From contig JAAXNY010000011.1 of NCBI GenBank assembly GCA_013420905.1, positions 558,001-622,000 on the forward strand: 64,000 nucleotides of DNA. Direction: 5' to 3'. Shown piece after piece: positions 23,257 to 44,095 of the stretch. The DNA comes from Collybia mongolica. Taxonomy: Eukaryota > Basidiomycota > Agaricomycetes > Agaricales > Clitocybaceae. The notes below the pieces were generated by a model. That model did no database searches. It saw only the letters and a program-made list of their open reading frames with translations, and was not told where the DNA came from. The position numbers and the translations under genes were made by a program. Each line of letters starts with the position of its first letter. Within the stretch, counting starts at the first letter, position 1.

Positions 23257-24901
23257 ATGTCAATTGGTACTCTCTGGACCACCCCTGGCCAGTCCAAAGG
23301 CAAAACTGTACGTCCATGATTGGATTGGCATTTCAGTCGATGTCCTGAACGTCGTATCTCCAGATCAGGGCTGCCGCTGCTTGGGGCAAGTTATCGATCG
23401 ACCTCCCGACTGAATACGTCCACCATACAGACAACAAAAAGCCTGAATTTTTGAACAAGTTCTCGCACGGAAGAATCCCTGCATTCGAGGGAAAGGATGG
23501 CTTTTTGCTATATGAAGGCGCCGCCATTGCTCGCTATGGTATGTTTCTTTATCGATGATGTTATCGATCATAGGCATACTCTTGGTGGACCATCCATCGC
23601 GATCTTATTCAAAAAGGATACTTTTTTATTCAAAATGCTCAATCGTTTCCTGATTTGTTGGTTCTGAGTGCTAAATCATTTTCACAGTGGCTGGTCTCGC
23701 CCCCAACTCTGGACTCTTAGGTGGCAGCGCCCAGGAAACAGCTCTCGTGGACCAGTGGACGCATTTGGTAGAAGAGGAAGTTGCCATGTACTCAGATCTG
23801 ATCTTCCATCTCACCAAAGGTGTTTTGACTCCCTACGCCAAGCCCGTAAGTGCGATGATGCCTTGACAGAATCGGATTCTAATCACAAGACTACAAACAG
23901 ATTCAAATGACATTCCACGAGCGTCAACTCAGGGCATTAAAGACGATCGATGCTCACCTCGCGACGCGCACTTTCTTAGTCGGAGAACGTATCACGTTGG
24001 CTGACATCTCTGTCGCGTCTCAAGTTCAACGTGCAGCCCAAATGACACTCGATCCCGCTGCTCGTGCGCAAATACCCAATGCCATTCGACACATGGAGAC
24101 CATTGTCAACCAGCCCAATTTCAAGGGAATATATGAGCCTACGGTATATGCCGAGAAGCTCCCTCAGTTCGTCGCTCCCCCAAAAGAGAAGAAGGAGCCC
24201 AAGCCTGCAGCACCCGCCGCACCCAAAGCGGCAAAAGCACCGAAGGCGAAGGCAGCCGATGATGATGACGATGACGAGCCCGCCGTACCCGCAGAGCCCA
24301 AAGTCCGCAACCCCCTCGACGACCTCCCAAAATCGACATTTAACTTGGAAGACTGGAAGAGAGCCTGGTCAAACAAGGATACTCGCGGCCCAGATGGTGC
24401 ACTAGAATGGTTCTACCAAAAGTATGCGTGATCATTAAGCTACACTTTCGGGTACTGACTGCTCTATCCTTATAGTTTCGACAAGGAGGGTTTCTCTCTC
24501 TGGCGTATTGATTTCAAATACAACGAAGAGTTGACACAGACATACATGTCTTCCAACCAGATCACCGGCTTCTTCAACAGACTGGAAGGGTCAAGGAAAT
24601 ATGCCTTCGGTTCTATGGGTGTTCTTGGTGTTGCCAACGACTCGAGGATCGTGGGTACGTTCATCCTTCGTGGGCAAGAGGCGGGTCCTGTCGTCGACGT
24701 GGCGCCCGATTGGGAGTCGTACTCCTTCACAAAACTTGATCTCTCGAAAGACGACGATAAGGCATTCTTCGAGGCTGCTCTTGCTTGGGACCTGGAGATC
24801 GATGGTAAGAAGTGGGTTGAGGGATCCGGGAAGTCTGTGAGTATTCTGTGCCCTTAATTGCTTCGAGTTTCTTTCTCAAACATCCTTTGCAGCTCAAGTA
24901 A
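23257..24901 (+). CDS. Elongation factor 1B gamma subunit (copy 1)
   Basis: The structural subunit of the eEF1B nucleotide-exchange complex that recharges eEF1A with GTP during translation. Exons: MSIGTLWTTPGQSKGKT (23257-23307), then from 23364 the GST-like N-terminal domain (IDLPTEYVHHTDNKKPEFLN, GRIPAFEGKDG), the GST C-terminal domain (AGLAPNSGLLGG, FHERQLRALKTIDAHLATR, TFLVGERITLADISVA), a Lys/Pro/Ala and Asp-rich hinge near 24180-24290, then the EF1G domain (NPLDDLPKSTFNLEDWKR, SNKDTRGPDGALEWFYQK, FDKEGFSLWRIDFKYNEEL, NQITGFFNRLEGSRKYAFGS, VAPDWESYSFTKLDL, AALAWDLEIDGKKW). The last exon adds only LK and a stop at 24899-24901. Length is about 420 residues, normal for the family. A second complete gene follows 474 bases downstream. 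Confidence 0.95.
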
Positions 24902-25374
24902 ACACGACGGATAATGATTATGTTTCTTTGTAAGTGGAAACAACTATACTCTCACTTTATGTTTGCTCATTAGTCACCAGAAACATTACTACTTGATGAT
25001 AGTGGTCGTGGAACGATGCAATTGATACATTCGCTACCAAAATAACGCGTATTTGCTCTTCTACGTATGTATACGATGAAATATATTTTCACTTTGACCT
25101 CCTTTGCCTTTTCCTCCCAATACATCCCTCGCTTTTCATCCCCCCGTCTATTCGACAATCCAAACTCAGCGTCGCGAATGCAGACAATATTCAGAACCTC
25201 GACGCGTCCAGAACAAGCCAGCCAAGTCAGGCGTCCACAATACATGATTAGATAAGCGCTGAAGCTGATCGATCTTCGTGACTTATCACGCGTAACAGAT
25301 TGTGACACAACTACAAAAATTTAAATCGCCCATCTCTCGATATCTCTCTAACGTTTATCTTTTCTCCTCCAAAA
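24902..25374. promoter_or_regulatory. Spacer and promoter of the second eEF1B-gamma gene
   Basis: Short spacer between the tandem genes. TTTAAAT near 25319 and a CT-rich leader (about 25330-25370) directly precede the ATG at 25375, a layout common for highly expressed fungal genes. Confidence 0.45.
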
Positions 25375-27033
25375 ATGTCTAACACACTCTGGACCATTCC
25401 CATGCAAGCCCCAGGCAAAACCGTGAGTACTACATGATAATAGTGTTCCCATTTTTTTTCAGCTCAAATTGTTAATTCAGGTCCGGGCTACTGCCGCCCT
25501 GGCAGGTATCAAGGTTGATCTTCCCGCAGAATACGTCCACTTTACGGATAACAAGAAGCCTGAATTCTTGGCGAAGTTCCCTCATGGAAAAATCCCTGCG
25601 TTTGAGGGTGCAGACGGTGTCAAAATATTCGAGGGTTCTGCTATCGCTCGTTATAGTGAGTCGTAATCTACCATCTAATCGATCTGGCGCATCGCTCTTC
25701 TCGAAATCTGCAAGACGTCAATGTTTCACCTCGCATCAATTAAGCCCTTGGATGAACTATGCCACAGTTTGATGAAGGTTGAATTGTTATTCATTTACTT
25801 TATCATCTAGTTGCTGCCCTAGCACCCAACTCTGGCCTCCTCGGTGGTGACCTCGTCGACTCAGCTCATGTGGACCAATGGGTCCACTTGGCCGACACAG
25901 AAGTCGACATGTACACGATGCTCATTACACAACTAGTTCGGGGCGTGATCACCCCTTACAACAAGCCCGTACGTGTTCTTCCAAAGAAGTCACATCCCCC
26001 ATCTAACCCTTCTCAGATTCACACTTTATTCGCTGAACGCCAGCTCCGTACCCTGAAGACCCTCGACGACCACCTCGCAACCCGCACATACTTCGTTGGC
26101 GAGCGCATCACCATGGCCGACCTCTCCGTCGCCTCCTCCGTCCAGCGAGCAGCCGGAATGACCATTGACACCGCCGTGCGCGCCCAGGTCCCCAACCTCA
26201 TCCGCCATCTGGAGACAATCACCAACCATCCCCAGCTCACCGCCATCTACGGCGTGACCCCTTCCATCGAGAAGGCCCTCCAGTACGTCCCACCTCCCAA
26301 GGGCGCCAAGTCCTCCGGTGGATGCGGACCTGCCAAGGTTGGGAAGGTCGAGAAGAAACCTGCCCCTAGCAAGAATGACGATGATGACGACGACGACAGG
26401 CCACCTCCCCCCAAAGTCCACAACCTCCTCGACGACCTCCCAAAATCGGCCTTCAACCTCGAAGACTGGAAGCGTGCCTACTCCAACAAGGAGACACGCG
26501 GGCCTGGCGGTGCTCTTGAGTGGTTTTATGAGCAGTATGTCCTTATCCTATGTCCTCATCCTATGTCCTGAGATAGCTGGCAATGCTGACTCTATTTCTG
26601 CTTTTTCTTTACAGCTTCGACAAGGAGGGCTTCTCTGTGTGGCGATTTGACTTCAAGTACAACGAGGACCTGACGCATACATTCATGTCCGCCAACCAGA
26701 TCACCGGGTTCTTCAACCGCATGGAGGCCTCGCGCAAGTACGTCTTCGGCTCCGGCGGCGTGCTTGGGGAGACGAACGACTCCGTCATTGTGGGCGTGAT
26801 CGTCATGCGCGGCCAGGATCACAAGGCCGTCATGGACGTCGCCCCTGATTGGGAGTCGTACGCCTACACGAAGCTCGACCTCGCCAACGACGCCGACAAG
26901 GCTTTCTTCGAGGCGGCCCTTGCTTGGGACCTCGAGATAGACGGTAAGAAGTGGGTCGATGGGAAGCTCGTGAGTTTTGTCTTTCTACCGGCTATTGAGG
27001 AAAAACCCAACTCCTTGTGTGCAGCTCAAGTGA
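25375..27033 (+). CDS. Elongation factor 1B gamma subunit (copy 2)
   Basis: Tandem paralogue of the gene at 23257-24901, same exon plan: MSNTLWTIPMQAPGKT, KVDLPAEYVHFTDNKKPEFL, GKIPAFEGADGVKIFEG, AALAPNSGLLGGDLVDS, FAERQLRTLKTLDDHLATRT, FVGERITMADLSVASSVQR, an Asp-rich hinge (about 26378-26400), then NLLDDLPKSAFNLEDWKR, TRGPGGALEWFYEQ, FDKEGFSVWRFDFKYNEDL, NQITGFFNRMEASRKYVFGS, VAPDWESYAYTKLDLAND, and a final exon giving LK and stop. The hinge differs clearly from copy 1 (PPPPK instead of an Ala/Lys-rich run). Synonymous sites from about 26040 on are distinctly GC-rich with C/G third bases, stronger than in copy 1, which suggests copy 2 is the highly expressed one. Both copies look functional. 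Confidence 0.95.
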
Positions 27034-27870
27034 GAAAAAGCACCGTCGTTGGGGGAGTGATAATCTAGAAGTCATCTTTTGTTTTGTGTAATGCCACATC
27101 TTGTATAGCGCACTGGAATACTCAAATATATGGAATCTCTGTATCAATGGTGCTCACCCACTGAACCCAGCGCTGCTGTTCCGTGGGGCAGCTGCTGACA
27201 GTTAACAACTTACAATAATAGGATTCCCGACTAATACACCATGATAGGCACAACGGGAGTGGTCATGCAGACAACTAGGAGGAATAACAATATTTATTAT
27301 CGCAACACATACTACAAGGAGAGAAAGAACAGCGGGGATGCATATAGACAGCAGACAGTGTGAAGTGTATCCCGTACAGGTTCCATCTGCTGCAATCATC
27401 ATACCTCCTCTGCACATAGGCTAAAACACGGGCACTGCGGTGGGTGCCCTAGTAATCGAAGATACGCCACAACCGAAGGGATGACCAATTTCCCTTGTCA
27501 TTCAGCTTCTCTAAAATCACCTTCATCCCCACGTCATCCGGAAACGCTTCATTAGGCGCCAACACTGAGAACATACTTCGCTGTCCAACTCGCCCCTCCA
27601 GTTTGGCTGATCTCGAAGGCAATGCCCAGGTCGCAGCGAGAATTTCAGTAACACCATTTTTAACCATCAATCATGCAAAAGACATGATGACGGCGGCCAA
27701 AGACAGGATGAGTATCCTACTGGTCGACACCTGTATTGGATACGCTGAGCTGAGGGTTGCGAGGTGTACAGGCCTCCCATGCATAATCAGCCGGTGGACC
27801 GCTGCGGAGAGAGGTAGTGAGAATGTGGTCTGGGGAGAAATGGCAGATGCCAGAAGAAGATATATGGGTT
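27034..27870. other. Intergenic, no gene recognised
   Basis: The 3' flank of eEF1B-gamma copy 2 plus about 0.7 kb of unassigned sequence. A minus-strand frame at 27449-27670 (ends NWSSLRLWRIFDY) and plus-strand frame 27495-27893 carry no known motif. Confidence 0.4.
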
Positions 27871-27879
27871 TTACGCCCA

Positions 27880-28640
27880 GATTTCCCAGTTGAGAGATAA
27901 CACCATCGTATGCTCAGCACCCAAGTCGGTAATGGGAGATTTCTTTTTTTTTTTTCGGGTAATAGAAATAGAACACCTTTCCCCATTCCTCGAGCCCAAA
28001 GCCACGAGGCCGAGGCTGAGCTGGCGCGAGAACGATGCGGCAGCCTCGAGGTCAATGTCGAGTGGGGGTATCGGAGCGGGGGTGTACGTCAGGATATCGG
28101 TAATCAATTTCTGGGTGGTTCTTGGCCGGTGAAGACCTTCGAGCGATGAAGAGGAGAAGTTTGATGACTGCAAGAGTGATCAGTATTTAGTGCAGGAAAT
28201 AGGAGGATCTCGGCTCACGCTGAAAACCCGGACCAGACACTACATAGCAAATCTCAGGCCGCCTTGGAAGGTCTTTGCACACGGGGCAGTATCGCGCAGT
28301 TGACGGACGGCACCTATGTTGCGGCTCATTTGGCACTCCAGCTCCTGCAGTCCTTGGAGTTCTTGCGATTCTGTGGGATTTAGTCAACGCACAACACCAC
28401 AAAATGTAACAGGAAACCCACGACTGTCTCCTCCTCGAAAGCGAGCAAGCCAACTGCTCCATACTTGCGGCGTCTTGGCGGTGCATCTATGGACGACATT
28501 GCAATTAATTTGAAGCGCGATATCGGCCGTCGAGTTGAATTGTGCTCGAACGTGCGATGAATGTCCATACAATGGTGATGGTATCGAAGCCCACGAGGAG
28601 GCCGAAGGTGGGTCAGAGTTGGGTCTGGGGCCTTGAAGTC
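27880..28640 (-). pseudogene. Truncated Golgi pH regulator (GPHR/GPR89) pseudogene
   Basis: Minus-strand fragments are clearly homologous to the intact gene at 44922-46745, with the same exon order: GFDTITIVWTFIARS (intact: GFGAITNVWAFIPRS), SWLARFRGGDS (intact: SWLTRFRGGDS), ELECQMSRN (intact: ALEHQMSRN), KTFQGGLRFAM-stop-CLVRVFS (intact: SFQGRIVNFGGRIFAIYCLIRVFS), and LDIDLEAAASFSRQLSLGLV (intact: VKIEFEAVAAFSRQLSLGLV). A TAG stop at 28240-28242 replaces the Tyr codon. The frame shifts after FIARS. The last membrane segments after LSLGLV are missing and replaced by unrelated sequence with a lysine run. It is therefore a dead partial duplicate about 17 kb from its source. Confidence 0.8.
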
Positions 28641-28719
28641 TTCGAAGCTTTGAAGAATGGGCCTGACTAGAGATAACGTTGATAGGAGTATCAGGTGCTG
28701 ACGCTGCTGCAAAGAACAC

Positions 28720-29061
28720 CCAGTGACTTCAAATTTCGAAATGGGGTGACCAGTTTAATATGTTCTTGAGAGATACTTCGGCTGGGTGTATGGTCCAATT
28801 GCAATATGGGGTGCCAAAACGCAGGTGCTCAGCGCTCATGCACACGTAAGCGATGGTGGGTGATCGGGACTCGGAAGCGCGCCAAATAGACATCACTTTG
28901 ATCTGAGCATCGGCACAGCTTTAAACGATCTTATCCTCTTTACAATCTTCGTAAATCTTGGTAACGTTAACCAATTACTCTGTGCTTACAGTATGTAACC
29001 CATCCAACCATTACATGACATCTATATATAAATCTAATTCCCGGATGTGAAGCTGTTACAT
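28720..29061. promoter_or_regulatory. Promoter region of the GTPase gene
   Basis: Spacer between the GPHR pseudogene and the GTPase start. TATATATAAA lies at about 29024-29033, 30-40 bases before the ATG at 29062. The CpG content is still normal here. Confidence 0.4.
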
Positions 29062-32000
29062 ATGTCACAATCAAATATCTCGCAAGCTCCAGCAACCGTC
29101 GACATGCAGGCAGTAGAAAAGAGGCGTGCAGAACTGAGGGAGCGAGCTGGGCGATTCCGCGTTCTCATTATCGGCAGGGCCAATGCAGGCAAGACAACTA
29201 TCCTCAAGAAGGTCTGTAACACAACCGACGATCCTGAGATCTACACCAAGGATGGACAAAGGGTCAGTGGAGTGGCGATCTAAGTGGTATATATTCAAAC
29301 TCACACGCAAAATATGCTACAGATTGACATAACAAATGTTGAACCCAGTGCGCAAGTGGGTTGTTGATATACTTCTCCATAGCAAATAACTAACTGTCAT
29401 GCAGCGTGGGCTTCATGACATCGAGAGCGAAATGGTTTTTCGCAGCAACCCTACTTTCATATTTCATGATTCTCGAGGGTTTGAGGCGGGTGGTGTCGAC
29501 GAACTGAAAAAAGTGAATGATTTTGTGTTGGCTCGCTCGAAGGCGAAGAAACTCCGCGACCAGATTCACGTTATTTGGTATGTCGATTTAAATTGAATCA
29601 CCCATGGAAGTGCACAGGAGGTAATCAGATGTTCTTGCAAGGTATTGCATTCCGATGGATGATGACCGTCCTATCACACATGCCGAACAGCAGTTCTTTT
29701 CTCGGGTGGGCACAGGCAAGGGTAAATGTAATACTAAATCATCAAATGCCATTCTGATTGGTCCGACAGTTCCTCTCATCGCTGTGTTTACAAAGTGTGA
29801 GGCACTTGAGATCAATGCTATAATTGCATTGGAGGACCAAGGTTGTAGTTTTGAAGAGGCAACAGAGCATGCACTGGAGTATGTTCAGAACAATTTGAAG
29901 AACACTGATTTGGATCTGCAGAAGATGAGATATCCTCCTCAGGGTCATGTGTACCTGCAAAGTTTGCAAAAATTACAATCTGTTCAGAGAAAAATACTAA
30001 CATCAATACAAGAGTTAAATAAACCAGACCAGCAATGCCTGGAGCTGGTAGAATGCACAGTAACAGTCCTTGACAGTGATATTCTGCAAGCAGTCTTTAT
30101 TTCAACACAACAAAACAATTTGGAGTTGTCAATGAAATACTCTCTTGAGTGAGTGCCTTGAATGCAGATGGATAATGAAAGCTGATTATTACCAAAATAG
30201 GTGGGGTGTAAAAGAGGCCTTGAAGCCCAAAAAGGAGAGGATGTCCTATGCCAGCATGTTTCAAAAAGTAATGATATACTTTCCCTATTATGTGGTGAGT
30301 AATGCCAGATAAATCTTGTTGTCTGCGGTACACTAAAAAGCACTTAGAGTAAGCAAGCAAGTAGTGGAAGACAACTAATAAATCATGTGCTTTGTGGATA
30401 TTACAGGCTGTGAGTGGCTGCACTTTCTAGTTGAGATATAAGCCTATCTTACTACTTGTAAAATGGATGGGCATAAAAGTGGGTAAGTGTTTATTAAGCT
30501 GAAGTGGAGTGCACCTCATTGCAGGCATATTGGCTTGATGTATACTGCAGGATGTGAGTAGCTATGCTTTTTTTGTATTTTTAAGCCCATCTCATAGCTT
30601 GATATATGCTGCAGCTTGTGAGTGGCTTTGCTTCTTTGTGTTTGTAAGCCCATCTCATGACTTGATGTGTGCTGCAGGAAGTGAGTGGTTGTGCTTTTCC
30701 AAATCCATGAGCCCCTCTCATGGCTTGATGTATGCTGCAGGAAGTGAGTGGCTGTGCTTCTCTGTATCCATGAGCTGCTCTCATGGCTTGATGTGTGCTG
30801 CAGAGAGTGAGTGTCTGCACCCCTCTGTATTCATGAGCTCATCTCATGGCTTGATGTATGCTGCAGGATGTGAGTTGCTGCACCTCTCTGTATCCATGAG
30901 CTTGTCTCAAGGCTTGATGTATGCTGCAGTATGTGAGTGGCTCTGCTCCTCTCTATCCATGAGCTTGCCTTATAGCTTGATGTATGCTGCAGATTGTGAG
31001 TGGCTCTGTTCTTCTTTATCTATGGGCTCATCTTATGGCTTGATGTGTGCTTCAGCATGTGAGTGGCTGTAGCTTCTCTGTATTCATGAGCCCATCTCAT
31101 GACTTGATGTGTGCTGCAGGAAGTGAGTGGCTGTGCTTCTGCAAACTCATGAGCCCATCTCATGGCTTGATGTGTGCTGCAGAGAGTAAGTGTTCATGCT
31201 TTTCTATAGCTATGAGCCCATCTCATGGCTTGATGTGTGCTGCAGAGAGTAAGCTTGCATCTCCAAATCAATGAGCCCATCTCATGGCTTAATGTGTGCT
31301 GCAGATTGTGAGTGGCTGTGCTTTTTTGTATCCATAGGCCTATCTCATGGCTTGATGTATACTGCAGCTTGTGAGCAGCTGTGCTTCTCTGTATCTAAGA
31401 GCCCATCACATGACTTTATGTGTGCTGCAGACAGTTAGTGGCTGTGCTTCTCCAAATCCATGGACCCATCTCATGACTTGATATGTACTGCAGAATGTGA
31501 GTGACTGTGCTTCTCTGTCTCTGTATCCATAAGCCCATCTTGTGTGTGCTACAGAATGTAAGTGGCTGTGCTTCTTTGTATCCACAAGTCCATCTCATGG
31601 CCTGATATATACTGCAGGAAGTGAGTACTTCTTGGTATCCATAAACTTGTCTCATGGCTTGATGTACACCCTAGATTGTGAGTGGCTCTGCTCTTCTGTA
31701 TTCATGGGCCTATATCATAGTTTGATGCCTGCTGTAGCAAGTGAGTGGCCATTCTAAACATTGTGGTTTTCTACTATTCTACTTGTCATATATCAATTAT
31801 AGATACTCTCAAGTGATGAGGTTACTCAGTCCTTAAGAAGTCTGGTTTGTTGCACCAGTTTCTGAGTCATTTCAACCAGTTCAATATCTTATATGCCTTT
31901 CAATAGCTTGAACATCTCTCATCCCCTCTGGATATCCAAACCATGAATTATTCATGTGGTTTGTCATTTCTTTACTTTCAAATATTGCAGCACCTCATAA

Positions 32001-32334
32001 ATTTCAAGCTCTTTCTATTATTGCAGAACACCTCATTATAATTTGTAACCAAGGGCACAAGTTATCTGTTGGAACTGTTTCTGCTACAATTTTTCTGTAC
32101 CAACAGTCTGTGCAGTGTGGCAAAGTTACAGAGGCAGTTCAAAGGGCATTTTTTGAATACCAAATGGGCATATCTACTCTGCCAGAAATACTTGTTTCCA
32201 CAAGTAAGAAGTTCAGGTTCAAGAATTTCATTCCAAAAAGGTGCAGTACATCTCTTTTCAAAATTAGCTTTAACATGATTAATTTCTTTATAGTCAAAGA
32301 CAGAAAGCCAAGAATAGAGATGTTGCTGCCATAG
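29062..32334 (+). CDS. P-loop GTPase (fungal G-domain family), split by a microexon/intron array
   Basis: Start MSQSNISQAPATVDMQ at 29062 (an in-frame ATG at 29047 is possible). G1 is GRANAGKTTILKKV; G3 is FIFHDSRGFEAGG (DxxG); G4 is VFTKCEAL (a TKxD variant). Exons join as KDGQR, IDITNVEPSAQ, RGLHDIESEMVFRSNPTF, QIHVIWYCIPMDDDRPI, FFSRVGTGKVPLIAVFTKCE, HALEYVQNNLKNTDLDLQKM, VLDSDILQAVFISTQQNN, WGVKEALKPKKERMSY, FQKVMIYFPYYV (ends 30294). From there to 31740 runs a chain of intron-like repeat units with 3-nt inserts. After about 31990 coding-like sequence resumes (HKFQALSIIAEHLIIICNQG, FLYQQSVQCGKVTEAVQRAF), plausibly its C-terminal region. Such GTPases are numerous in Agaricomycetes and of unknown role. 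The N-terminal part to 30294 is firm; the continuation through the array is inference. CpG content drops sharply within the gene. Confidence 0.7.
30407..31740 (+). repeat. Tandem array of 63-bp intron-like units separated by 3-nt putative microexons
   Basis: Twenty consecutive junctions from 30551 to 31740 (plus one at 30407-30409) read ...CAG or TAG / three bases / GTNAGY.... Spacing is 63 bp for 15 of 19 steps, else 57, 59, 61 or 64. Every unit keeps AG before and GT after the triplet. The donor is GTGAGT in 15 of 20, otherwise GTAAGT, GTAAGC, GTGAGC or GTTAGT. A branch-point-like TTGAT lies about 11 bases before most acceptors. The triplets vary: GAT, CTT, GAA, GAA, AGA, GAT, TAT, ATT, CAT, GAA, AGA, AGA, ATT, CTT, ACA, AAT, AAT, GAA, ATT, CAA. 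None is a stop codon, and the flanking exon ends in phase 0, so each triplet would add one residue. Non-multiple-of-three steps break any read-through frame, so the 172-residue open frame at 30554-31072 is not a convincing gene. Confidence 0.75.
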
Positions 32335-33180
32335 ATAGCTTGACTACTGGCATTGTAGGAACCCAGGCCAGAGAAAAACTTCTTGGCACACTTTTTGAAG
32401 TCATCTGGGCCAATCAATTAGGTTAACTTGATGTTACATTTTAATACATTTCTTTCAGCTAATCCATTTACTTTTTACCAACAGACAAGCAGATGATGGA
32501 AAACAAATTTACAGTGGAATAGTGATTAATAAACATATGTTTGATTGGTTGTCAGGACAGAAAACTCAATTGTATCTTTGTATTCAGAATTCAAAGGAGC
32601 TATTTACAGTGGCATCCAAAAATATTGCACAACAAATGCAAACAAATCAAATTAGATACTACAAAACAGGAACCTATTGTGAACATCTGTACTTGAGGTA
32701 GAGGGCTATTACTGGCAGATACAAGCCCTTATGTTTTTTTTTTGATTAACTTTTCTTTATATTTCTAGAACCAGGTTGTTGCAATAGAACTAGCTATCCA
32801 GAATCTCTTCAACTTTATATTACTTTTTGGTGTTGATAAGTTTAGTTCTGGAACACTTGTCAGGCATTGTCCTAGAATTAGGTTGTAGGGTACAGGGAGT
32901 AGCTTGACATCATGGAAGGCCTGATAGATCCACAACATGAAGATGTAATATGACCACAGATTTGAGCTTGTGAAATACTTGTTGCACTTCTGTAAGGGGT
33001 CATGTTGCCAAGAGGCTCAGACAGGAAGCAGTATACACAGTATGAACAACCACTATGAGTAGAGAACCCAGACCAAGTCTATTGCAAAGGTGCCCTTCCA
33101 TGGAGAGGAAGGGGCACCTTATATACAGTACATTGTGCCTATGTCTCAAATAACAACAGAATCTGATATCAGTAACTCTA
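32335..33180. other. AT-rich, CpG-poor sequence without recognised gene
   Basis: It follows the GTPase C-terminal region and precedes the first R1 repeat. Some stretches (about 32480-32700) look formerly coding, but no frame stays open and no family was recognised. Confidence 0.4.
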
Positions 33181-34096
33181 CTTGGGTGGAGTGGGCCAAC
33201 ACACTGTGTGGCAGGTACTCATTCTTTATTTCTTTTTTCTATTTTTTTGTAGGAGAAATAAGTCCATTCCACATTCAGGAAGTTGTAACTGACTAAAAAC
33301 AATGTAGGTGATAGTTTATAGAGGTCATGTGACCATAGGAAAATGTTGCCAAGTAAACAAGCAATGCCTGTGCACAAAGCCCAATGCCATAGCTTGCCTG
33401 GTTATGGAGAAAACACAAAAACCATCAGAACTAACTTTTACCAGGATCATGTACACTTAATAAGCATTCAGATTGTTGTCATGTATTTGGTATACTTATG
33501 TGGTGGAATAGATCATGTGACATGTGTCAATAAATAGAGAAATCAATCCTCTTTGTATTTCAGGTAAATATAGTAGTAGTTGTTGATTATTCCAATGTTT
33601 AGTGTAATTTCCCACAAGGGTCATGTTTGGTCAGGGTCATTATTGTTATAAGATGTTTGTTCACCCCTGGCATAACACACAGACCTTCAAAACTAGCTGA
33701 ATCTGGACATTTCTGATATTTTGCTCAAAATGGACCATGGGAAAAATATGCTCAACAAGGAAATTGTAGAGCCATGTTTGTACATTCCAAACATATAAAA
33801 ACAAAGTTAATAGCTTTACTGGTTATGGAGAAAAACACAAAATAAATTTTGAAACGCAACACTTTGAAATATTAGATATGCATAATTTTGATGGCATCAT
33901 TAAAAGCATTATGTAAGCATCCCAAATACATGCAAAATATGTCACAATACTTTGTATTTGTGGAGAAATGCTATAAAAAGCCATAAGAGAAGAAAAATCC
34001 CATTATGGAAATATTTTCCCGCAGTGTTGAAATATGAATGAATGAATCACTCAATCAATCAACTTTTTGCCCGAAAACTGGGTTGATAAAGAACTC
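33181..34096 (+). repeat. Dispersed repeat R1, copy 1 (forward)
   Basis: Starts CTTGGGTGGAGTGGGCCAAC and ends ...GTTGATAAAGAACTCATAA. Two reverse-orientation copies lie at 36025-36882 and 42113-42998. The length of about 0.9 kb and the shared ends suggest one mobile or duplicated unit. No protein recognised. Confidence 0.75.
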
Positions 34097-34109
34097 ATAA
34101 TAACAAGAG

Positions 34110-34940
34110 ATTATAATCAAATTTGGAAAGGTACAAACAAATATAAATATACATTTCCTGGTGTACCCCCTCCATAGGTCTAGGAGTAGTAACAATTTCA
34201 ATTGTCTCTGTTAGCCTTGTATTTGCTGAGATATGCATCATCTATATTGTGGGAACTTCATTAATATTGTTTGTTTGTCCAGATGTTGGCAAAGTAATAT
34301 ACAGATGATATTCATTTGTAATATGTAGTAAGAAAATTGTTGATAATGAGATTTGGAAGAGTACAACAACTACAAATACATATAAATATACAAATAATGT
34401 ATTCCTTTACAATGTCTAGTAGTAGCATGTCCATCAGCTTTGTATTTGCTGAGATAAGTATCATCTATATTGTGGGAAATTTCTTTAGTATTATTGTTTG
34501 TTTGGCCAGATGTGTGATATACAGACAGTATTCATTTACAATATGTAGCAAGAAATTTGTTGTTGATGAGGTTTAGAAAGAGAAAAACAAATACAAACAC
34601 ATAGACAAGGTACTACTTCACCATATCTAACACTAGCAATTTAAATTACATCCATAAGCCTTGTTGTTGAGATATGCAATGATTTATATTGTGGGAACAT
34701 TGATATTATTGTTTGTTTGGCTAGCTGTGTGGCAAAGTCATATACAAACTTGATATTCATTCATAACATGCTTATAGTGAGAGAGCTGCTTTTGATCATG
34801 ATGTTTGAAGGTGTACAAACAAATACAAATACATATAAATATCTACATTGGGTAGCCCCTCACCATATCTAGTAGTAGCAATTTAAATTGCATCCATAGG
34901 TCTTGTCATTGTTGAGATATGCAATGTTTTGTATTGTGGG
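34110..34940 (+). repeat. Tandem repeat of 219-245 bp units (about 4 copies)
   Basis: The string TATTGTGGGA recurs at about 34244, 34468, 34687 and 34932. Between these come shared blocks for TTGTTTGTTTGGCCAGATGTG, TATTCATTTGTAATATG, TTTGGAAGAGTACAA and CATATAAATATAC. Satellite-like, between R1 copy 1 and R2 copy 1. Confidence 0.65.
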
Positions 34941-35392
34941 AAAAGTTTGACCCAATGCGGAACAAGCCTCTTGTAATCGTGCTTACGTTTGTCAACTATG
35001 CTGTTAGCTCTAACAGCGTAGTTGACAAACGTAAGCATGATTATGCAGTGGACAGTTATTAATTAATTGAGATATCCCAAGAAAAAGACCAATCAACTCG
35101 AATTTATATTATTAAATGCAGCTTATGTTAGTAGTTGCCTTTTTTGCTCGAAATCCGCGCGTCGGCTAATTTTGATTCCCACAGTTAGAAAAATATCTCC
35201 ACGACTACAAAGTCTTACTGATGTACTTCAAAATGTTTACTGATCATATTCTAATGAAATCTCGGCACACTTCAAACTTACTGACCGTGGGAAAAACAAC
35301 ACTGGATCTTGTTGGGTACGCTGAATACTCCCCGCAAACCCAGGATGATGAATGAGTTACTTATGTAAACATAAGGACTTGTAATAAGGGCT
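34687..35392 (+). repeat. Dispersed repeat R2, copy 1 (CpG-retaining)
   Basis: A direct repeat of about 0.7 kb, also at 37205-37908 and partly at 40701-40869. Near its 3' end a CCCACAG acceptor-like string is followed by an open frame LEKYLHDYKVLLMYFKMFTD, HILMKSRHTSNLLTVGKTTL, DLVGYAEYSPQTQDDE stop. This copy keeps several CG sites that are TG or CA in copy 2, so it is the least decayed copy. The encoded peptide is not recognised. Confidence 0.7.
34974..35043. repeat. 70-bp near-perfect palindrome (34-bp arms)
   Basis: The left arm begins TAATCGTGCTTACGTTTGTC; the right arm is its reverse complement with 2 mismatches in 34, around a 2-base centre. Single strands could fold into a long hairpin. 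A second copy lies at 37496-37565. Confidence 0.8.
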
Positions 35393-36024
35393 TGAAAGGT
35401 AGCTAAAACAGTGCAAATTTATTGTAAACTATGTACAGAGTCAAGTAATAAAGAGGAAGTAATTTGATATTCTGTCAAAAAAGTGCTGGGCTTTCCTCAA
35501 AATTCTATACACCACTGTACATAACACAGATGCAGTTTAGCAAACTACAGTAAGTAAAGTCAGAATGTGCATGCATGAAAGGTTGTTGTACATGGCATAG
35601 TAGTTCTCCACATGGAGAGTCACCATGATGACCCCAGCAGGGGTCTAAGTCATTCACCTGGTAAGGGGCACTGGGGAGACAGATCCCTTGGAGCAGCTCA
35701 CCACCCAAGGAGCACCAGCCTTAGCCAGCCCCAACTTAGCCTGTATAGTATGAGGGTGAGGAGGTGAGCCTTCTTCCTATCAAGGGAAACCTCCAACCAT
35801 AACAGGTATCCCCCTCAGCTGTGCTTGGGGGGCTTGTGGTACATCAAATGAAAACACACCTGGGTTGTCATCTAGGAATTGGATCAGCCATTTATAGCCA
35901 AGTTAATGCCTGGGTCAGGATGCCTGCTTGTGTACCAGGTAGTTCCAGAGGATGTGGAGCACAGTCCCCACAGGGAAACTGTACTTGTAGGCACATCCTC
36001 CCTAGGGAAGAAGCAGTCCCAGTT
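35393..36024. other. CpG-poor spacer between R2 copy 1 and R1 copy 2
   Basis: No gene recognised. A moderately GC-rich stretch at 35590-36010 has short open frames on both strands without motifs. Confidence 0.4.
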
Positions 36025-36882
36025 ACGAGTTCTTTATCAACCCAGTTTTCGGGCAGAAAGGTGATTCATTCATTCATTCATATTTCAACACCGCGGGAAA
36101 ATATTTCCATAATGGGATTTTTCTTCTCTTATGGCTTTTTACAGCATTTCTCCACAAATACAAAGTATTGTGACATAATTTGCATGTATTTGGGATGCTT
36201 ACATAATGCCTTTGATGATGCCATCAAAATTATGCATATCTAATATTTCAAAGTGTTGTGTTTCAAAATTTATTTTGTGATTTTCTCCATAACCAGTAAA
36301 GCTATTACCTTTGTTTTTATATGTTTGGAATGTACAAACATGGCTCTACAATTTCCTTGTTGAGCATATTTTTCCCACGGTCTATTTTGAGCAAAATATC
36401 AGAAATGTCCAGATTCAGCTAGTTTTGAAGGTCTGTGTGTTATGTCAGGGGTGAACAAACATCTTATAACAACAATGACCCTTACCAAACATGACCCTTG
36501 TGGGAAATTATCCTAAACATTGGAAAAATCAACAACTACTACTATATTTACCTGAAATACAAAGAGGATTGAATTCTCTATTTATTGACATATGTCACAT
36601 GATCTATTCCATCACATAAGCATACCAAATACATGACAACAATCTGAATGCTTATTTAGTGTACATGATCCTGGTAAAAGTTAGTTCTGATGGTTTTTGT
36701 GCACAGGCATTGCTTGTTTGCTTGGTAACATTTTCCCAGGGTCACATGACCTCTATAAACTATCATCTACATTGTTTCTAGTCATTTACAACTTCCTGAA
36801 TGTGGAATGGACTTATTTCTCCTAAGAAAAGAAATAAAGAATGAGTACCTGCCACACAGTGTGTTGGCCCACTCCACCCAAG
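36025..36882 (-). repeat. Dispersed repeat R1, copy 2 (reverse)
   Basis: Inverted copy of 33181-34096, from GAGTTCTTTATCAACCCAG to CCACTCCACCCAAG. Together with copy 1 it forms an inverted repeat flanking the satellite and R2 copy 1, a fold-back arrangement of about 3.7 kb. Confidence 0.75.
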
Positions 36883-37204
36883 TAGGCACCAATGGGCATG
36901 GCCAGTAATAGCCTGCGCAAATCTGGCAGTAAGTGTGGTGCTGTTGTGCACCCTGGCAAGCCATGGGCTGTAAGGGGAGTGCACACACCCCACATCTAGT
37001 CACTCAGATACACCTTACTTATCATATGCTCACTCATATGCCACTGCACACCTCAAGACATCTCAGCATAACCCTACCTATTCTGTGACACCCTCCTAAC
37101 CCTTTCACATTTATTAGGTTACTCCTTATTGACATGTTACATATGTATCATTTGCACAGCCCTGGTGGGCTGATATAGGTTTCCAAAGTATATTTCCATA
37201 GTAC
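36883..37204. other. CpG-poor spacer, nothing recognised
   Basis: Between R1 copy 2 and R2 copy 2. No gene or repeat family identified. Confidence 0.4.
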
Positions 37205-37908
37205 AATATATTGTGGGAACTTTGATGGTATTGTTTGTTAGGCTAGCTGTGTGGCAAACTCATATACAAACTTGATATTCATTTGTAACATGCTTGTAGT
37301 GAGAGAGCTGCTTTTGATCATGATGTTTGAAGGTGTACAAACAAATACAAATACATATAAATGTCTACATTGGGTAGCTCCTCACCATATCCAGTAGTAG
37401 CAATTTAAATTGCATCCATAGGTCTTGTCATTATGGAGATATGCAATGTTTTGTATTGTGGGAAAAGTTTGACCCAAAGCGGAACAAGCCTCTTGTAATC
37501 ATGCTTACATTTGTCAATTATGCTGTTAGCTCTAACAGTGTAGTTGACAAAAGTAAGCATGATTATACAGTGGCCAGTTATTATTTAATTCCTGAGATAT
37601 CCCAAGAAAAACACCAATTAACTCAAATTTATAATATTAAATGCAGCCCATGTTAGCAGTTGCCTTTTTTGCTCAAAATCTGCATGTCAGCTAATTTTGA
37701 TTCCCACAGTTGGAAAAATATTTCCACAACTACAAAGTCTTACTGATGTACTTCAAAATGTTTACTGATCATGTTCTAATGAAATCTTGGAACACTTCAA
37801 ACTTACTAGACATGGGAAAAACAACACTGGATCTTGTTGGGTACACTGATTTTTCCCTGCAAACCCAGGATGATGAATGAGTTAACTTATGTAAACATAA
37901 GGACTCAT
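37205..37908 (+). repeat. Dispersed repeat R2, copy 2
   Basis: Direct copy of 34687-35392. It encodes the same kind of frame (LEKYFHNYKVLLMYFKMFTD, HVLMKSWNTSNLLDMGKTTL, DLVGYTDFSLQTQDDE stop) after a CCCACAG. Where copy 1 reads CTCGAAATCCGCGCGTCGGC this copy reads CTCAAAATCTGCATGTCAGC, i.e. almost every CG has become TG or CA. Confidence 0.72.
37496..37565. repeat. 70-bp palindrome, second copy
   Basis: Same structure as 34974-35043 but with more arm mismatches, mostly transitions consistent with CpG decay. Lies at the same place within R2 copy 2. Confidence 0.75.
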
Positions 37909-38612
37909 AATTTCACTACTCTACAGGAGTCTTTTCCAACACTTGTTCAGAGATCTGTGGAGCTGCAATAGCAAAACCCTCTGCCCCAATATCTGACATC
38001 AGAACTCATCAAGTGACAATTAAGTTAACTTGGAGTCGGAATTCCTCATTCTGACCCTTGCACTAGTGTCAAGATTTTGTGTTTTCCACTTCCATATCAA
38101 TAATGTCTAACCATGGAGCATATCCATGGTCAAATTCTTAAGGATGCAAGACATCTCTCTTCTCCCTCAACAACTCAATCCTCACAATCCTCATGGCTAA
38201 ATTCTCAGCATTGAAAGTCAATAAGTGTGGTGGCAAGGTCAAGTCAGGGTCAACTCCCTCTGCCAAACATAAAGTATTAGGTAGTTGCCACTTCCTCTAG
38301 TAGGATGATTTCACTAACTGTATTACACCTGATCAGCAGCACAGACCATGACTTTACAAGCTAAGCTGAAGAAACTACAAGGTACCTACATCCAATTTAT
38401 TTCTTGTTCAATGTGCACTCAACTTCATCAATACCATCAGCTGAGAATGACACCCTGCACAAATCCACTGCTGCAAAAGAGATAACATCGGACTTGATAC
38501 CACAGCCAGCACACAGCTCTAGCAGAAAGAAATTTAACTTACAGTTTACAATGTGTTTAGAAGATGACCAGGATTTATATACATCAATCTGCATAAGTTT
38601 CATTTTTATTCA
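37909..38612. other. CpG-poor spacer, nothing recognised
   Basis: Between R2 copy 2 and the Ty3/Gypsy fragment. Probably degraded transposon sequence, but no motif is readable. Confidence 0.35.
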
Positions 38613-38875
38613 CAGAATCTATCTGATTGTCTATAGTGTCTAGAGAAAAACAAACTCTACTTAAAACCAGAGAAATGCACATTTGAAGCAGAGAAAGTAG
38701 AATTCTTGGGTCTCATGATTTCAAATGGCCATGTGGAAATGGATCCAGTCAAAATTCAGGGTGTCACCCATTGGCCTATACCCAAATCCAAGAAGGATGT
38801 TCAGTCATTTTTAGATTTCACAAACTTCTACTGGAGATTTATAAAATCCTATTCAAAGATAGCACTGTGCACCTG
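38613..38875 (+). mobile_element. Ty3/Gypsy retrotransposon pol fragment (reverse transcriptase end)
   Basis: The plus-strand frame reads KNKLYLKPEKCTFEAEKVEF, LGLMISNGHVEMDPVKIQGV, THWPIPKSKKDVQSFLDFTN, FYWRFIKSYSKIA. This is the thumb/connection part of Ty3/Gypsy reverse transcriptase (L-KPEKC-F-V-FLG, G-MDP-K-V-WP-P, Q-FLG-NFYR-FI). An in-frame TAG (38640) precedes it, and homology stops abruptly at 38875. A relic with no LTRs recognised. Confidence 0.85.
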
Positions 38876-39260
38876 GTGGGGGTGGTTTTCCCCCACTTAA
38901 TGGATGAAAAGGGTTTTTCCTAAGTTTAGTGGATGAAATTAAGGGGTATGAAAATAGGATGAAATTTCATCCCAGATATTTCATCCCTTGAGAGGATGAA
39001 TTTCTGCTCTTATAATTTCAGAAATTTTCATCCCTTAGTGGAGTGAACTTTCATCCCATTAGAGGTGAATTATATGGGACAATTTTAATCCAGTGAAAAA
39101 GAGGGGAATTTCATCCCATAAAGGGTGGGTTTTATTAGATGCTTTTAATCTATTAGAGAGTGAATTTTCATCCCATAAAAAGTGGAATATGTGGGATGAT
39201 TTAAGTTCAGCATATAAGGTATTTCATCCCACAAATAGTGGGTTTATGCTGTACTTTACA
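38876..39260. repeat. Degenerate short tandem repeats with a TTTCATCCC motif
   Basis: The strings TTTCATCCC, GGGATGA/GGATGAA and AGAGGTGAATT recur every 30-60 bases. Because TTTCATCCC and GGATGAAA are reverse complements, the tract is also rich in small palindromes. Starts directly where the Gypsy homology ends. Confidence 0.55.
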
Positions 39261-39419
39261 CTGAGCCACATGTTTGTGGACTCACTTACTTTTTTCTACT
39301 ATTATAAATTACTTACTTTGTTTCTTACTGACAATTCTATATACATTGATAATAATACTATACATTGATACTAAATACCATACATGATAGTAAATACTTA
39401 ACTTAATATGGGTGGGGGC

Positions 39420-39890
39420 CCCTGCTGCCCCTGTCATCCTCATGGCCATTGTTTTTGGCACCAGGTGGTGCATAATTGGCCCCCATGGCATCATCAGTGG
39501 CCTGGGTAGCCTGGCTTCTTGAACAATGTCAGGCATTGGGGTCAAGGCCTTGCCATTGTTGTTACCAGCTGTGTGGGGTGGTACTGGCTTGTTGCTGGCC
39601 TTCCCCTCATCATTGTTGTTATGCGCTTTGTCATTGCATGATTCACCTTTGTCCTCACCTTTGTTGTTGTTTTCATTGTCATCTTCATCCTTGTCCTCAT
39701 CCTCGTCCTTGTTTTTGTTGTAGTTGTCCACTCTGTTGTTGTCACTGCTGCTGTTGTTGCTGTTATTGCTGCTGGCCTTGTCATTGCTGTTGCTGCTGCT
39801 ATCTTCATTGTTATTGTTGTTGTTGTTTTTGTCTTCCTTGAGTATAGTCTTCATATCCAAGTGTTGCAGACACCTAGTTGTCATTCAGGT
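39420..39890. repeat. Trinucleotide low-complexity tract (GTT/GCT/CAT-rich)
   Basis: Compositionally biased triplets give open frames in several frames at once (Asn/Asp/Ser-rich on the minus strand, Leu/Ser/Cys-rich on the plus). That is why a 191-residue frame (39309-39884 minus) exists; the bias explains it better than a gene. Its 3' part has a tract GWPTHIK-like without known homology. Confidence 0.5.
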
Positions 39891-40700
39891 GACTTTGCCC
39901 TGCACTGGCAGGGTGGGCATGGTGGCTGATTGTGCATAAGGTGGGAGTGTGATGCTGGTGGTTCCTGCATTGAGTGCATGTTTGGTCCTGGGATGGGGAA
40001 TTAGCACTGTGAAACTGAGAATAGATGAAATTCAACCCTGTGTTTCATCCTCTTAAATAAGAGAAATAATACTGTATATAGATTGGGCTGCCCAATTACA
40101 GATAACACCTTTGCAATGAACTAGGCCCAGGTGTCTTGCAATAAAGCCCAATTAGTCCTCTGGTGCCCCCTTCCCTGTGTGGCTCAACCCTGCTGCTCAT
40201 ATCAATCCCCCCTTCTATCACTCAGTGTGAAACTGATGCACAACCCTAGACTATAGACAACCCCTACCCTCTAGAATACCACTGTATACAGGAGGCCACC
40301 TACTGCAGCAGCATGCAAACACAACCCATCCCTTGCACATCCCACACCAGCAAGTACTGATGCAAAATCCAATAAGGGGGCCATGGTAACTGAGGACAGC
40401 AGGGGAGTAGCAGGCTTGTGTGGGGGACAAGTTCTTGAATAGACTTATATTTTGTGTGATGTAAGGAAGTAATATCAATCCAAATACCTATAATAGAAAC
40501 AAGTTCCCACAGGATTGAAATATATATCAACCATTCAACATTTAACAATTTATTTCTAGCCTTGCATCCTGGGTTAATCAAGAACTTATCAGATATGCTA
40601 AAGATAGAAATGTAATTATCAAAGACAAACTTCAAACAACTGTACATATATGCCTGTTAAGTATTTTTTTTGTTAAATTATCACATACAATATTTGGCCA
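39891..40700. other. CpG-poor spacer, nothing recognised
   Basis: Probably degraded repeat sequence. No open frame with motifs. Confidence 0.35.
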
Positions 40701-40869
40701 TACTGATGTACTTCAAAATGTTTACTGATCATGTTCTAATGAAATCTTGGAACACTTCAAACTTACTAACCATGGGAAAAACAACACTGAATCTTGTTGG
40801 GCATGCTGAATTTTCCCCACAAACCCAGGATGATGAACAAGTTACTTATGTAAACATAAGGACTTGTAA
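40701..40869 (+). repeat. Dispersed repeat R2, copy 3 (partial)
   Basis: Only the 3' coding-like part is present: LMYFKMFTDHVLMKSWNTSN, LLTMGKTTLNLVGHAEFSPQ, TQDDEQVTYVNIRTCKGGVY. The stop codon of the other copies (after QDDE) is a CAA codon here, so the frame continues to GGPE stop at 40912. Confidence 0.7.
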
Positions 40870-41024
40870 AGGTGGAGTATATATACAACTACCTAAGGGG
40901 GGACCAGAGTAAAATAAATATGGAGAGAGGTAAACCAAACATAACCAGAGTAGTATACAGCATTGATCAAATGATAAAAGATAAGATAAGATTGAAAGAT
41001 GAAGATAAGATTGAAATGCAAATT

Positions 41025-41466
41025 TCATGACATCCTTGTGGTACCAGGTGCACCAAAGATCAATGGCCTAGAAGTTAGGGGAGGGAATGTAGGCATCACA
41101 CATGACAGCAGCAATACAAGGCCCAGTGGATGATGAATCAAATGCCTCTTGGAGGAGGGCTCTATGCTCAGAGAAGAACTTCTGCCTCTCATCCTTGCTA
41201 CTTTTAGGGGGAGCAGAGAGGTCATAAAAGATCTGACCTTCCAGGCAGTCAAGGTGATGGCTACCTAGGCAGGTTGCAGGTTCAAAGGGATTGAGGTCCT
41301 CTGTGGTGGAGTCCTGGTTGGTCCAGGCATTGTTCACAGGGGACTTTATTCTCCTCTGCATAGAGGGAGAGAGGGAGTCAACAGAGTACTTGTGTGTAAG
41401 GGCAACCCTATGACATGCTGCACTAACCCCAAGTTGGCCAATGCATGATCTAGCAGAGGAATCCAA
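41025..41466 (-). CDS. Unrecognised coding-like fragment
   Basis: A 132-residue minus-strand frame: MDSSARSCIGQLGVSAACHR, ALTHKYSVDSLSPSMQRRI, WTNQDSTTEDLNPFEPATCL, DLSAPPKSSKDERQKFFSEH, RALLQEAFDSSSTGPCIAAV. It has balanced amino-acid use and looks like genuine protein sequence rather than low complexity, yet sits in the CpG-poor block. I do not recognise the family. It may be part of a transposon-borne gene or a trapped host gene. A coding region cannot be proven from sequence alone. Confidence 0.35.
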
Positions 41467-42112
41467 AGTTATATTTATGAAGTCAAGTATCAGGCTATCT
41501 ACTTACCTAGCAGAGGAAGTCAAAGAGAACGTTCTGAGGATCCTCTGCCAGGGGTCTCTATCCTGTGTACCTATTCTAAACAATAGCCATGGAGTCCTAT
41601 TGTTGCCACATGGCTCAGGGTCATAGTGTACACTATCTACAAGCAAATTGATGTACTCTGATGGGAAGCCAATGTACTCCAACTGGAATCTGATGTGCAA
41701 GTGCAAGTGCTGATGCACAAATGTGAGTGCTGATGTACAAACATGCTGATGTCCAATGTGTGAAGTGAGCCATGGGCATGGAATTGGGTATTCCCCTTAC
41801 ATTGTGGTTCCTGTTGATGAGGTTCCAAAATGCATAAGAATGCACTAGAGTGCAGGTGTGGGTTTGGCTCCTATCCACCAGCTTATGTATATGTAGGTGT
41901 ATAGGTGAAAGGCCCACAATGTGTTGGAAATTTCTGGATTGAGTCACAAGGGCTTACAAAGCCTTGTAAGTATGTCAGCAGATTGGTAGCATACAAGCAG
42001 TTATAAGCAAGATGATTATTGGCAAGGGACATTGCAATCTTATCTTACAAAAGTAATTATAAGTTGGTTTGACCATCAAAAGGAGTGATCTGACTTTTAT
42101 CAGATTAGTTAT
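41467..42112. other. CpG-poor spacer, nothing recognised
   Basis: Contains short overlapping motifs such as GATGTACAAA / GTGAGTGCTGATG around 41690-41760. No gene recognised. Confidence 0.35.
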
Positions 42113-42998
42113 AAGTTCTTTATCAACCCAGGTTTCAGGCAAAAAGTTGATTCATTCTTTCATTCATTCATATTTCAACACCATGGGAAAATATTTCCAT
42201 AATAAGATTTTTCTTCTCTTATGGCTTTTTACAGCATTTCTCCACAAATACAAAGTATTGTGACATAATTTGCATGTATTTGGGATGCTTACATAATGCT
42301 TTTGATGATGCCATCAAAATTATGCATATCTAATATTTCAAAGCATCATGTTTGAAAATTTATTTTGTGTTTTTCTCCATAACCAGTAAAGCTATTAACT
42401 TTGTTTTTATATATTTGGAATGTACAAACATGGCTCTACAATCTCCTTGTTGAGCATATTTTTCCCATGGTCCATTTTGAGCAAAATTATCAGAAATGTC
42501 TAGATTCAGCTAGTTTTGAAGGTCTGTGTGTTATGCCAGGGGTGAACAAACATCCCATAACAACAATGACCCTTACCAAACATATACACTAAACATTGGA
42601 ATAATCAACAACTACTACTATATTCATATGAAATACAAAGAGGATTGATTTCTCTATTAATTGTCACATGTCACATGATCTACCATTGCATAAGCATACC
42701 AAATACATGATAACAATCTGAATGCTCATTTAGTGTCCATGATCCTGGGAAAAAGTTAGTTTTGATGGTTTTTGTGTTTTCTCCATAACCAGGCAAGCTA
42801 TGGCATTGGGTTTTGTGCACAGGTATTGCTTGTTTACTTGGTAACATTTTCCCATGGTCACATGACCTCTATAAACTATCACCAACATTGTTTCTAGTCA
42901 TTTACAACTTCCTGAATGTGGAAGGAACTTATTTCTCCTAAGAAAAGAAACAAAGAACAAGTACCTGCCACACAGTGTGTTGGCCCACTCCACCCAAG
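42113..42998 (-). repeat. Dispersed repeat R1, copy 3 (reverse)
   Basis: Same family and ends as 36025-36882, with scattered transitions and small indels. Lies 5.2 kb from copy 2. Confidence 0.75.
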
Positions 42999-43849: not shown

Positions 43850-44095
43850 CTCTCACCTGCCCCCACCACAAGCCATGGCCCCAAACATTGTTTTCAGGGC
43901 CCTCTCCTCTCATAGGCCACCCCCACCATGAACCAAGGCCCTGAACTTCACATTCAGGGCCTCTTCTCTTGCCCACTGCCCTCACCACAACCCATAGCCC
44001 TAAACATCATGTTCAGGGCCCTCTCATCTCATCTGACCTCCCCACCACAAGCCAAGGCCCTGAACATGAGGTTCAAGGCCCTTTGTTTTCAGGCC
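43850..44095 (+). repeat. Tandem repeats (about 65 bp, 3-4 copies) with palindromic core
   Basis: Units contain CCCACCAC(A/G)A-CCA-GGCCCTGAAC followed by GTTCAGGGCC and CTCTCCTCTC. The GGCCCTGAAC...GTTCAGGGCC core is an inverted repeat, so each unit could form a short hairpin. C-rich and distinct from its AT-rich surroundings. Confidence 0.6.

Follow-up and report, generated by a model that had tools for sequence, protein, structure and literature searches.

The closest described counterparts of the locus considered here are the NACHT-ANK (nank) genes of the truffle Tuber melanosporum, which, according to the accessible text of several papers, contain dozens of 3-bp exons (Iotti et al. 2012, via PMC4986451, PMC10197012, PMC3689799, PMC9815663). 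In the same accessible accounts, combinatorial use of these exons is reported, a different subset being included in each transcript (PMC4986451, PMC10197012, PMC3689799, PMC9815663). Another paper states, in its available part, that functional microexons are undescribed in filamentous fungi (PMC11121469); the truffle work is older. The repeat domains of Podospora HNWD/NLR proteins are presented, in the available sections of one of these papers, as nearly identical repeats that are shuffled by recombination and differ at a few hypervariable codons (PMC4986451). Recursive splicing in Drosophila, as outlined in the available portion of its source, proceeds stepwise through ratchet points in long introns, where an acceptor abuts a donor (PMC8605326).

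The locus belongs to Collybia mongolica (Basidiomycota; Agaricales; Clitocybaceae; assembly GCA_013420905.1) and lies on contig JAAXNY010000011.1, in positions 558,001-622,000 of the forward strand. This whole stretch of 64,000 nt is called the window below, and feature positions refer to it. Its array is very probably a run of single-codon exons in a P-loop GTPase gene, encoding a hypervariable, perhaps recognition-related, segment. As far as the accessible descriptions go, it resembles the nank genes in having tens of codon-sized (here predicted) exons in an expanded fungal family. It differs from them in that the truffle proteins are NLRs of an ascomycete, whereas a basidiomycete G-domain protein with neither a NACHT nor an ankyrin match is concerned here; further differences may lie in the Collybia introns, which are tandemly repeated in many copies, and in the hypervariability of the codons between them. 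In a sequence-only reading of the same DNA, it had been remarked that such a structure had not been met before; in principle, it is described for the truffle genes in the text available. In the accessible open-licence literature, no description of a basidiomycete GTPase family with such arrays was found. Codon-sized exon arrays as a kind are already known; their occurrence in a GTPase family of basidiomycetes, with the introns homogenised and the codons hypervariable, appears to be new.

The Podospora domains likewise combine near-identical repeats with hypervariable codons; in the accessible account, however, the repeats there are coding (WD, ANK, TPR), whereas here each repeat is intron except for one codon. 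Juxtaposed acceptors and donors are shared with the Drosophila ratchet points, as those are described in the text available, but each step here would leave one codon. The zinc-finger arrays of PRDM9 show concerted evolution of repeats without introns between them, together with hypervariable contact codons; the present arrays are similar in the homogenisation of the repeat and the hypervariability of specific codons, but introns separate the codons here. In the micro-exon genes of Schistosoma, runs of small symmetric exons larger than 3 nt give variable proteins, and here a comparable run would consist of exons of just 3 nt.

The array and the gene that carries it

All features of the gene lie on the + strand, and the larger exons were placed by the spliced open reading frame. 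The first exon (29062-29262) opens with the start ATG, contains the P-loop GRANAGKTT and has a Pfam MMR_HSR1 match. It is followed by exon 2 (29323-29355), exon 3 with FHDSRGFEAGG (29405-29577), exon 4 (29642-29721), exon 5 with VFTKCEAL (29770-29961), exon 6 (30013-30148) and exon 7, which ends in YFPYYV (30201-30294). These seven coding exons (29062-30294) splice to 303 open codons with phase 0 at the end, and the spliced frame confirms the earlier placing of the end of the upstream exon at 30294 in this phase. The 303-residue part matches MMR_HSR1 with E 5.4e-5, above the family cut-off; the G domain with its P-loop and the motifs of the agaricomycete GTPase family is present. Neither in this part nor in the C-terminal exon of one paralog was a NACHT or ANK match listed by Pfam up to E 0.1.

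The pattern AG-NNN-GTNAGY, with sites linked at 48-85 nt, forms one chain in the 64-kb window, i.e., 22 sites from 30405 to 31736 on the + strand. Linked and unlinked sites together number 30 on this strand and 6 on the - strand, and no second linked pair occurs elsewhere in the window on either strand. The array slice without its last site contains 21 such sites, compared with a mean of 0.34 and a maximum of 3 in 1000 under a dinucleotide model. The run of AG/3 nt/GTNAGY junctions at intron-like spacing, claimed in the sequence-only reading, was confirmed, the chain being corrected to 22 triplets; in place of the 11 different triplets counted there in 20 units, the recount gave 10 among the last 20 and 12 among all 22. 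That none of the triplets is a stop, also claimed there, holds for the 22 in the window and extends to 465 triplets of the family. TRF detects a repeat of 63 bp x 19.5 at 30531-31749. Its second repeat in the window (43860-44082, 60 bp x 3.7) has no linked chain of 3-nt sites.

An intron of 112 nt (30295-30406), also placed by the spliced frame, precedes the array, which (30407-31740) comprises 22 predicted three-base exons with the one-letter translation AWDLEERDYIHERRILTNNEIQ. In order, they are GCT (A, 30407-30409), TGG (W, 30480-30482), GAT (D, 30551-30553), CTT (L, 30615-30617), GAA (E, 30678-30680), GAA (E, 30741-30743), AGA (R, 30804-30806), GAT (D, 30867-30869), TAT (Y, 30930-30932), ATT (I, 30993-30995), CAT (H, 31056-31058), GAA (E, 31120-31122), AGA (R, 31183-31185), AGA (R, 31246-31248), ATT (I, 31305-31307), CTT (L, 31368-31370), ACA (T, 31431-31433), AAT (N, 31494-31496), AAT (N, 31555-31557), GAA (E, 31618-31620), ATT (I, 31675-31677) and CAA (Q, 31738-31740). 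The acceptor before TGG is AAAAG, and CAACAG stands there in several paralogs. A post-array exon of 14 codons in phase 0 (31803-31844) reads ILSSDEVTQSLRSL, and the next exon of the window copy (31907-32041) has an in-frame stop at 32039-32041, placed from the translation.

Paralogs in the genome and relatives in other fungi

The 46-Mb genome was searched with DNA and protein queries for relatives of the window array. The first units of the array, used as a DNA query, gave at least 97 matches, located in the window and 14 other regions; these matches also served to judge dispersal in unrelated genes as a test for introner-like elements, and all 14 regions outside the window carry pieces of the GTPase gene family. 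Two protein exons gave at least 25 and at least 28 matches, and a third gave at least 33, including 26 with E 1e-11 or better; all these census counts are lower bounds. Beyond the window, 20 loci with chains of 3-nt exons were found, each holding pieces of the same GTPase family.

The statistics given below refer to 21 loci with 24 array segments (three loci are split) and 31,799 bases. Loci were picked by DNA or GTPase similarity, and array segments were delimited by the splice motif. Left out were L022 (5 sites), L032 (4 sites) and L028, a copy of L027 (99.3% identical over 4.8 kb), as well as L029, L031 and L034-L038, which lack a four-site chain in the stretch examined. L039 was found later and is outside the counts, and L040 has no chain of 3-nt sites. 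L039 (C16:928500-932500) holds a further array of 21 sites with one CCC triplet, about 16 kb from the GTPase half L029. L027 and L028 lie about 60-71 kb from the starts of contigs C2 and C18, and their identity suggests a recent duplication.

Distant paralogs have units of 64 bp (L023), 75 bp (L024), about 67 bp (L025) and 67 bp (L026, L027, L030); in L033, with units of about 64 bp, the introns are strongly diverged and the 3-nt grammar is kept. Distant paralogs with unrelated introns thus share an identical acceptor-triplet-donor grammar.

Splicing by projection was applied to eight of 12 aligned copies, the other four (L011, L013, L014, L018) appearing broken. In L011 the gene is split, its array having the 5' portion on one strand and the 3' portion on the other, with transposon-like sequence at the break. 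The array of L014 (reverse strand, 3668-5251) is interrupted by an insertion, flanked, by eye, by two nearly identical direct repeats. In L023, sequence at 1500-2600 which by eye looks like retroelement coding sequence separates the first and second gene halves. In L037, a close paralog (read on from 1737), the chain ends after two 3-nt sites and is followed by unrelated sequence; an insertion is probably the cause of this break.

A search with the window GTPase gave 1657 proteins at E 0.001, of which the best 120 were listed. Among the matches listed, the closest are homologous agaricomycete 'G domain-containing' proteins, with a best identity of 65% in Collybia nuda; they include proteins of Collybia, Suillus, Serendipita and Laccaria. 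No relatives of solved structure were found by sequence at E 0.001. The matches listed from two protein searches make up a set of 191 relatives. Only 13 of the 191 run more than 45 residues past a WFPH-type motif in the motif scan, the remainder being shorter or without the motif, in which they differ from the window family. The scan passed over P0057, which has WFPI. Many other genomic models terminate at a WFPH-type motif.

Six JGI proteins (P0020, P0021, P0121, P0122, P0123, P0127) are uninterrupted through the G domain and the array site and come from contigs of 1.6-2.6 kb; because of these uninterrupted frames on short contigs, they are probably transcript-derived. Directly after WFPH/WFPQ, they contain a stretch rich in D, E, Y, H, L, R, N and W, for example, YHHREEEEYHHHHHYLEYEEYL and YYYDDVRDLDVLDLLRDLDVLLLLKREK. 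Chosen by position and by eye, the stretch is in all six cases closer to the microexons in composition than is every non-overlapping window of the protein concerned. Four of them (P0021, P0121, P0122, P0123) extend into the C-terminal part, and P0020 and P0127 terminate shortly past the stretch. A matching stretch in apparently intronless proteins supports a coding role of the array, in other organisms only. P0057 (JGI) and the Suillus models P0074, P0115 and P0131 contain both parts with only a short stretch in between, and would be either proteins with shorter segments or models joining across the array. The C-terminal part of P0021, used as a query, matched only P0021 itself.

The tails of Suillus P0135, P0136, P0138 and P0152 resemble translated repeated introns (VSVSILLRA-like). 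In P0136 and P0138, two residues stand between the translated intron repeats, hinting at 6-nt exons in Suillus.

The alignment used for structure prediction took 61 of the 191 proteins. The predicted structure of P0021 (one model only; mean pLDDT 84.2, pTM 0.84) comprises a G domain and a helical part, and its stretch 303-355 is partly helix, with low-confidence pLDDT blocks of 49-80. In the fold search, entries of immunity-related GTPases (IRG) top both lists at TMq of at most 0.38 and rmsd of 7-10, with EngB and septin Z nearly equal, a leaning too weak for an assignment to the IRG fold.

Probable coding character of the triplets and competing readings

The spacing of the splice motifs is very specific. 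In the 24 segments, 444 instances of YAG-N{L}-GTRAGY have L=3, whereas any other value of L between 0 and 12 is represented by 0-3 instances, compared with dinucleotide-model means of 1.3-2.9 per length. The 450 array introns taken from units spaced 48-80 nt apart are 50-73 nt long, while the triplet exon length stays 3; 18 of 470 steps exceed 80 nt, and a unit there is lost or has no motif. Donors of the 450 introns include GTGAGT (259) and GTAAGT (129), and 443 acceptors are CAG or TAG, these frequencies being partly by construction, as the motifs helped to define the units. Not by construction, YTNAY is present 9-32 nt upstream of the intron end in 422 of the 450, compared with 117 for a control stretch near the intron start, although units within one array are non-independent.

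No stop was found among the 465 family triplets, compared with about 24.5 expected; within-array permutation gave 24.6, with a minimum of 11 in 5000. The first part of each of the eight projected copies is free of stops and has a length divisible by three, giving 303 codons (L015 without ATG), and in all eight, of 12 aligned, the 14-codon exon after the array is in phase 0. Four copies (L012, L016, L019, L020) are stop-free across the projected C-terminal exons, giving 484-503 residues; at the projected end there is a stop codon in L016 and L019 and none at that point in L012 and L020. As regards the NRL/HRL-type motif expected at the end of the C-terminal part in the agaricomycete G-domain family, NRL stands in L012, L016 and L020 and NQL in L019, and the window copy stops earlier in frame. 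As judged from a median dN/dS of 0.245 (range 0.17-0.40, 28 pairs of 8 loci), the upstream GTPase coding part is under purifying selection; by the same measure (0.51-0.87, 6 pairs), the C-terminal part is under weak constraint. At the level of the DNA, the 3-nt exon grammar, the phase, the absence of stops, the constraint on the GTPase part and the hypervariability of the triplets considered below are established, and from them we infer that the 3-nt exons are actually spliced in Collybia mongolica.

How completely they would be included is a separate matter. The 3-nt exons may be real and included combinatorially, with many isoforms per gene, which is compatible with the single-codon exon reading and which we regard as a tentative possibility, somewhat short of an even chance. 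Since each unit exon has 3 nt, the frame is preserved whatever the number of units and whichever of them are skipped, a skipped unit costing one codon, and the truffle NACHT-ANK precedent is described likewise in the accessible text.

The variability of the unit is concentrated in the triplet. In 180 units with introns of exactly 60 nt, from 14 of the 24 segments, the entropy is 1.95 bits at triplet position 1, 1.46 at position 2 and 1.01 at position 3. The sequence-only reading had proposed that the triplet should be uniquely variable in such a table; this is borne out for positions 1 and 2, which are the most variable, but not for position 3, as five intron columns have higher values (1.10-1.39). 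The way in which the units were searched for makes AG and the first donor G invariant; this does not apply, or not fully, to donor G5 (180 of 180) and T6 (176 of 180). Among 313 pairs that match exactly in their 9-nt flanks, the triplets show 0.406 differences per site, compared with 0.004-0.062 in 13 control intron windows. Of 52 unit pairs whose introns are identical, 56% differ in the triplet; of 160 pairs whose introns differ once or twice, 76% do.

This variability might stem from a local mutational process and not from selection for new residues. Where the 24 nt on either side of the triplet are identical, 37 of 81 pairs differ in the triplet, 23 of them by two or three bases, as such a process would allow, although the pairs are non-independent and 18 of these 23 come from L010. 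The triplets, however, contain no stops, and the start of the array is conserved despite the same grammar (TGG in 10 of 12 copies, CTT-GAA, once CTT-GAG, in 11 of 12), so this explanation seems unlikely to us.

Very improbable is a single long intron enclosing a minisatellite, in which the AG/GT pairs would be inherited decoration of the repeat, with no internal exon. TRF does detect a tandem repeat, and several copies are broken through insertions or rearrangement; against this stand the absence of stops (about 24.5 expected), the exon length fixed at 3, the centring of variability on the triplet and the chains with unrelated introns in distant paralogs. The distribution of CpG also argues against it. 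Only 40 CpGs are found in the arrays, compared with 1479 expected; 20 of the 40 are within triplets, as CGN arginine codons, at a density 30 times that of the remaining array sequence. No CpG occurs at the triplet|GT junction, and none of the 465 triplets ends in C, which is what CpG loss at NNC|GT would give. A neutral minisatellite was rejected, the triplet being both more constrained, in having no stops, and more variable than the rest of the unit.

An unspliced 63-bp unit read as a 21-residue repeat (LMYAAGSEW) has an open frame of 177 stop-free codons (30539-31072) in its favour, but is hardly conceivable and was rejected, as at least 3 stops occur in each of the three forward frames in 24 of 24 segments and the paralog units of 64 and 67 bp change frame at every repeat. 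On the minus strand, stops occur in all frames of all segments, except one frame of the 147-bp L014a.

The single-codon exon reading agrees with what the sequence-only reading had proposed, i.e., successive 3-nt exons in one gene, produced by tandem duplication of an intron; this proposal gains support from the paralogs, the phase, the constant exon length beside variable introns, the lack of stops and the hypervariability.

Proposed mechanism and the state of the window copy

In the mechanism that we propose, each short intron (mostly 50-73 nt) would be removed through intron definition, and one residue per unit would be added in frame between the GTPase/helical part and the C-terminal part. 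A 3-nt exon is too short to hold both splice-site complexes simultaneously, so complete inclusion of the microexons is not guaranteed; with acceptor and donor just 3 nt apart, simultaneous recognition of adjacent introns is hardly feasible, and removal would probably be stepwise. The repeated introns would provide homology for unequal exchange, by which they would stay alike while the array changes in length; recurrent triplet blocks (up to six in L030, five in L016) are the expectation from such exchange. Single codons may diverge under diversifying selection, a locally high mutation rate being the alternative. The product would be a segment some 20-35 residues long, hypervariable in sequence and possibly helical. 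The least certain step of the proposal is its likely role, recognition of self/nonself or another partner, which is modelled, by analogy, on proposals for fungal NLR repeat domains in the accessible text of PMC4986451.

A bolder version, which we consider rather doubtful, is a receptor-diversifying system of mushrooms, with repeated introns for recombination, one variable residue each, combinatorial inclusion and many variants per gene. If true, it would mean a genome-encoded, immune-like repertoire in a GTPase-coupled sensor of many mushrooms, which would have escaped notice because 3-nt exons are beyond what gene finders can model. Should splicing proceed as predicted, the family would offer a test of the spliceosome on 20-40 adjacent 3-nt exons and a clean case of concerted intron evolution with hypervariable single codons. 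It would also place codon-sized exon arrays, in candidate recognition proteins, in both main fungal phyla, make nonself recognition in mushrooms directly testable and point to frequent mis-annotation of a large fungal gene family at the array site.

The claim of single-codon exons rests on the whole family and not on the window copy. The C-terminal exon of this copy is one base shorter, as in L009, L010 and L015, and the early C-terminal in-frame stop comes after this difference; a very short extra intron was considered as the cause in all four. At 31978-32241, similarity to the C-terminus of the family continues in a different frame. In the successive 4-kb bins of window positions 28001-44000, CpG observed/expected is 0.49, 0.14, 0.07 and 0.01, compared with 0.80-1.03 in the remaining bins, which resembles a methylation- or RIP-like decayed island. 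Because of the early stop, the weak AAAAG acceptor and the CpG-purged island, the window copy may be decaying, though its 303-codon part is intact.

Two further features were noted by eye on the + strand of the window: an open frame at 38637-38900 resembling a fragment of Ty3/gypsy reverse transcriptase, and two elongation factor 1B gamma-like copies at 23883-27068, apparently a tandem duplication.
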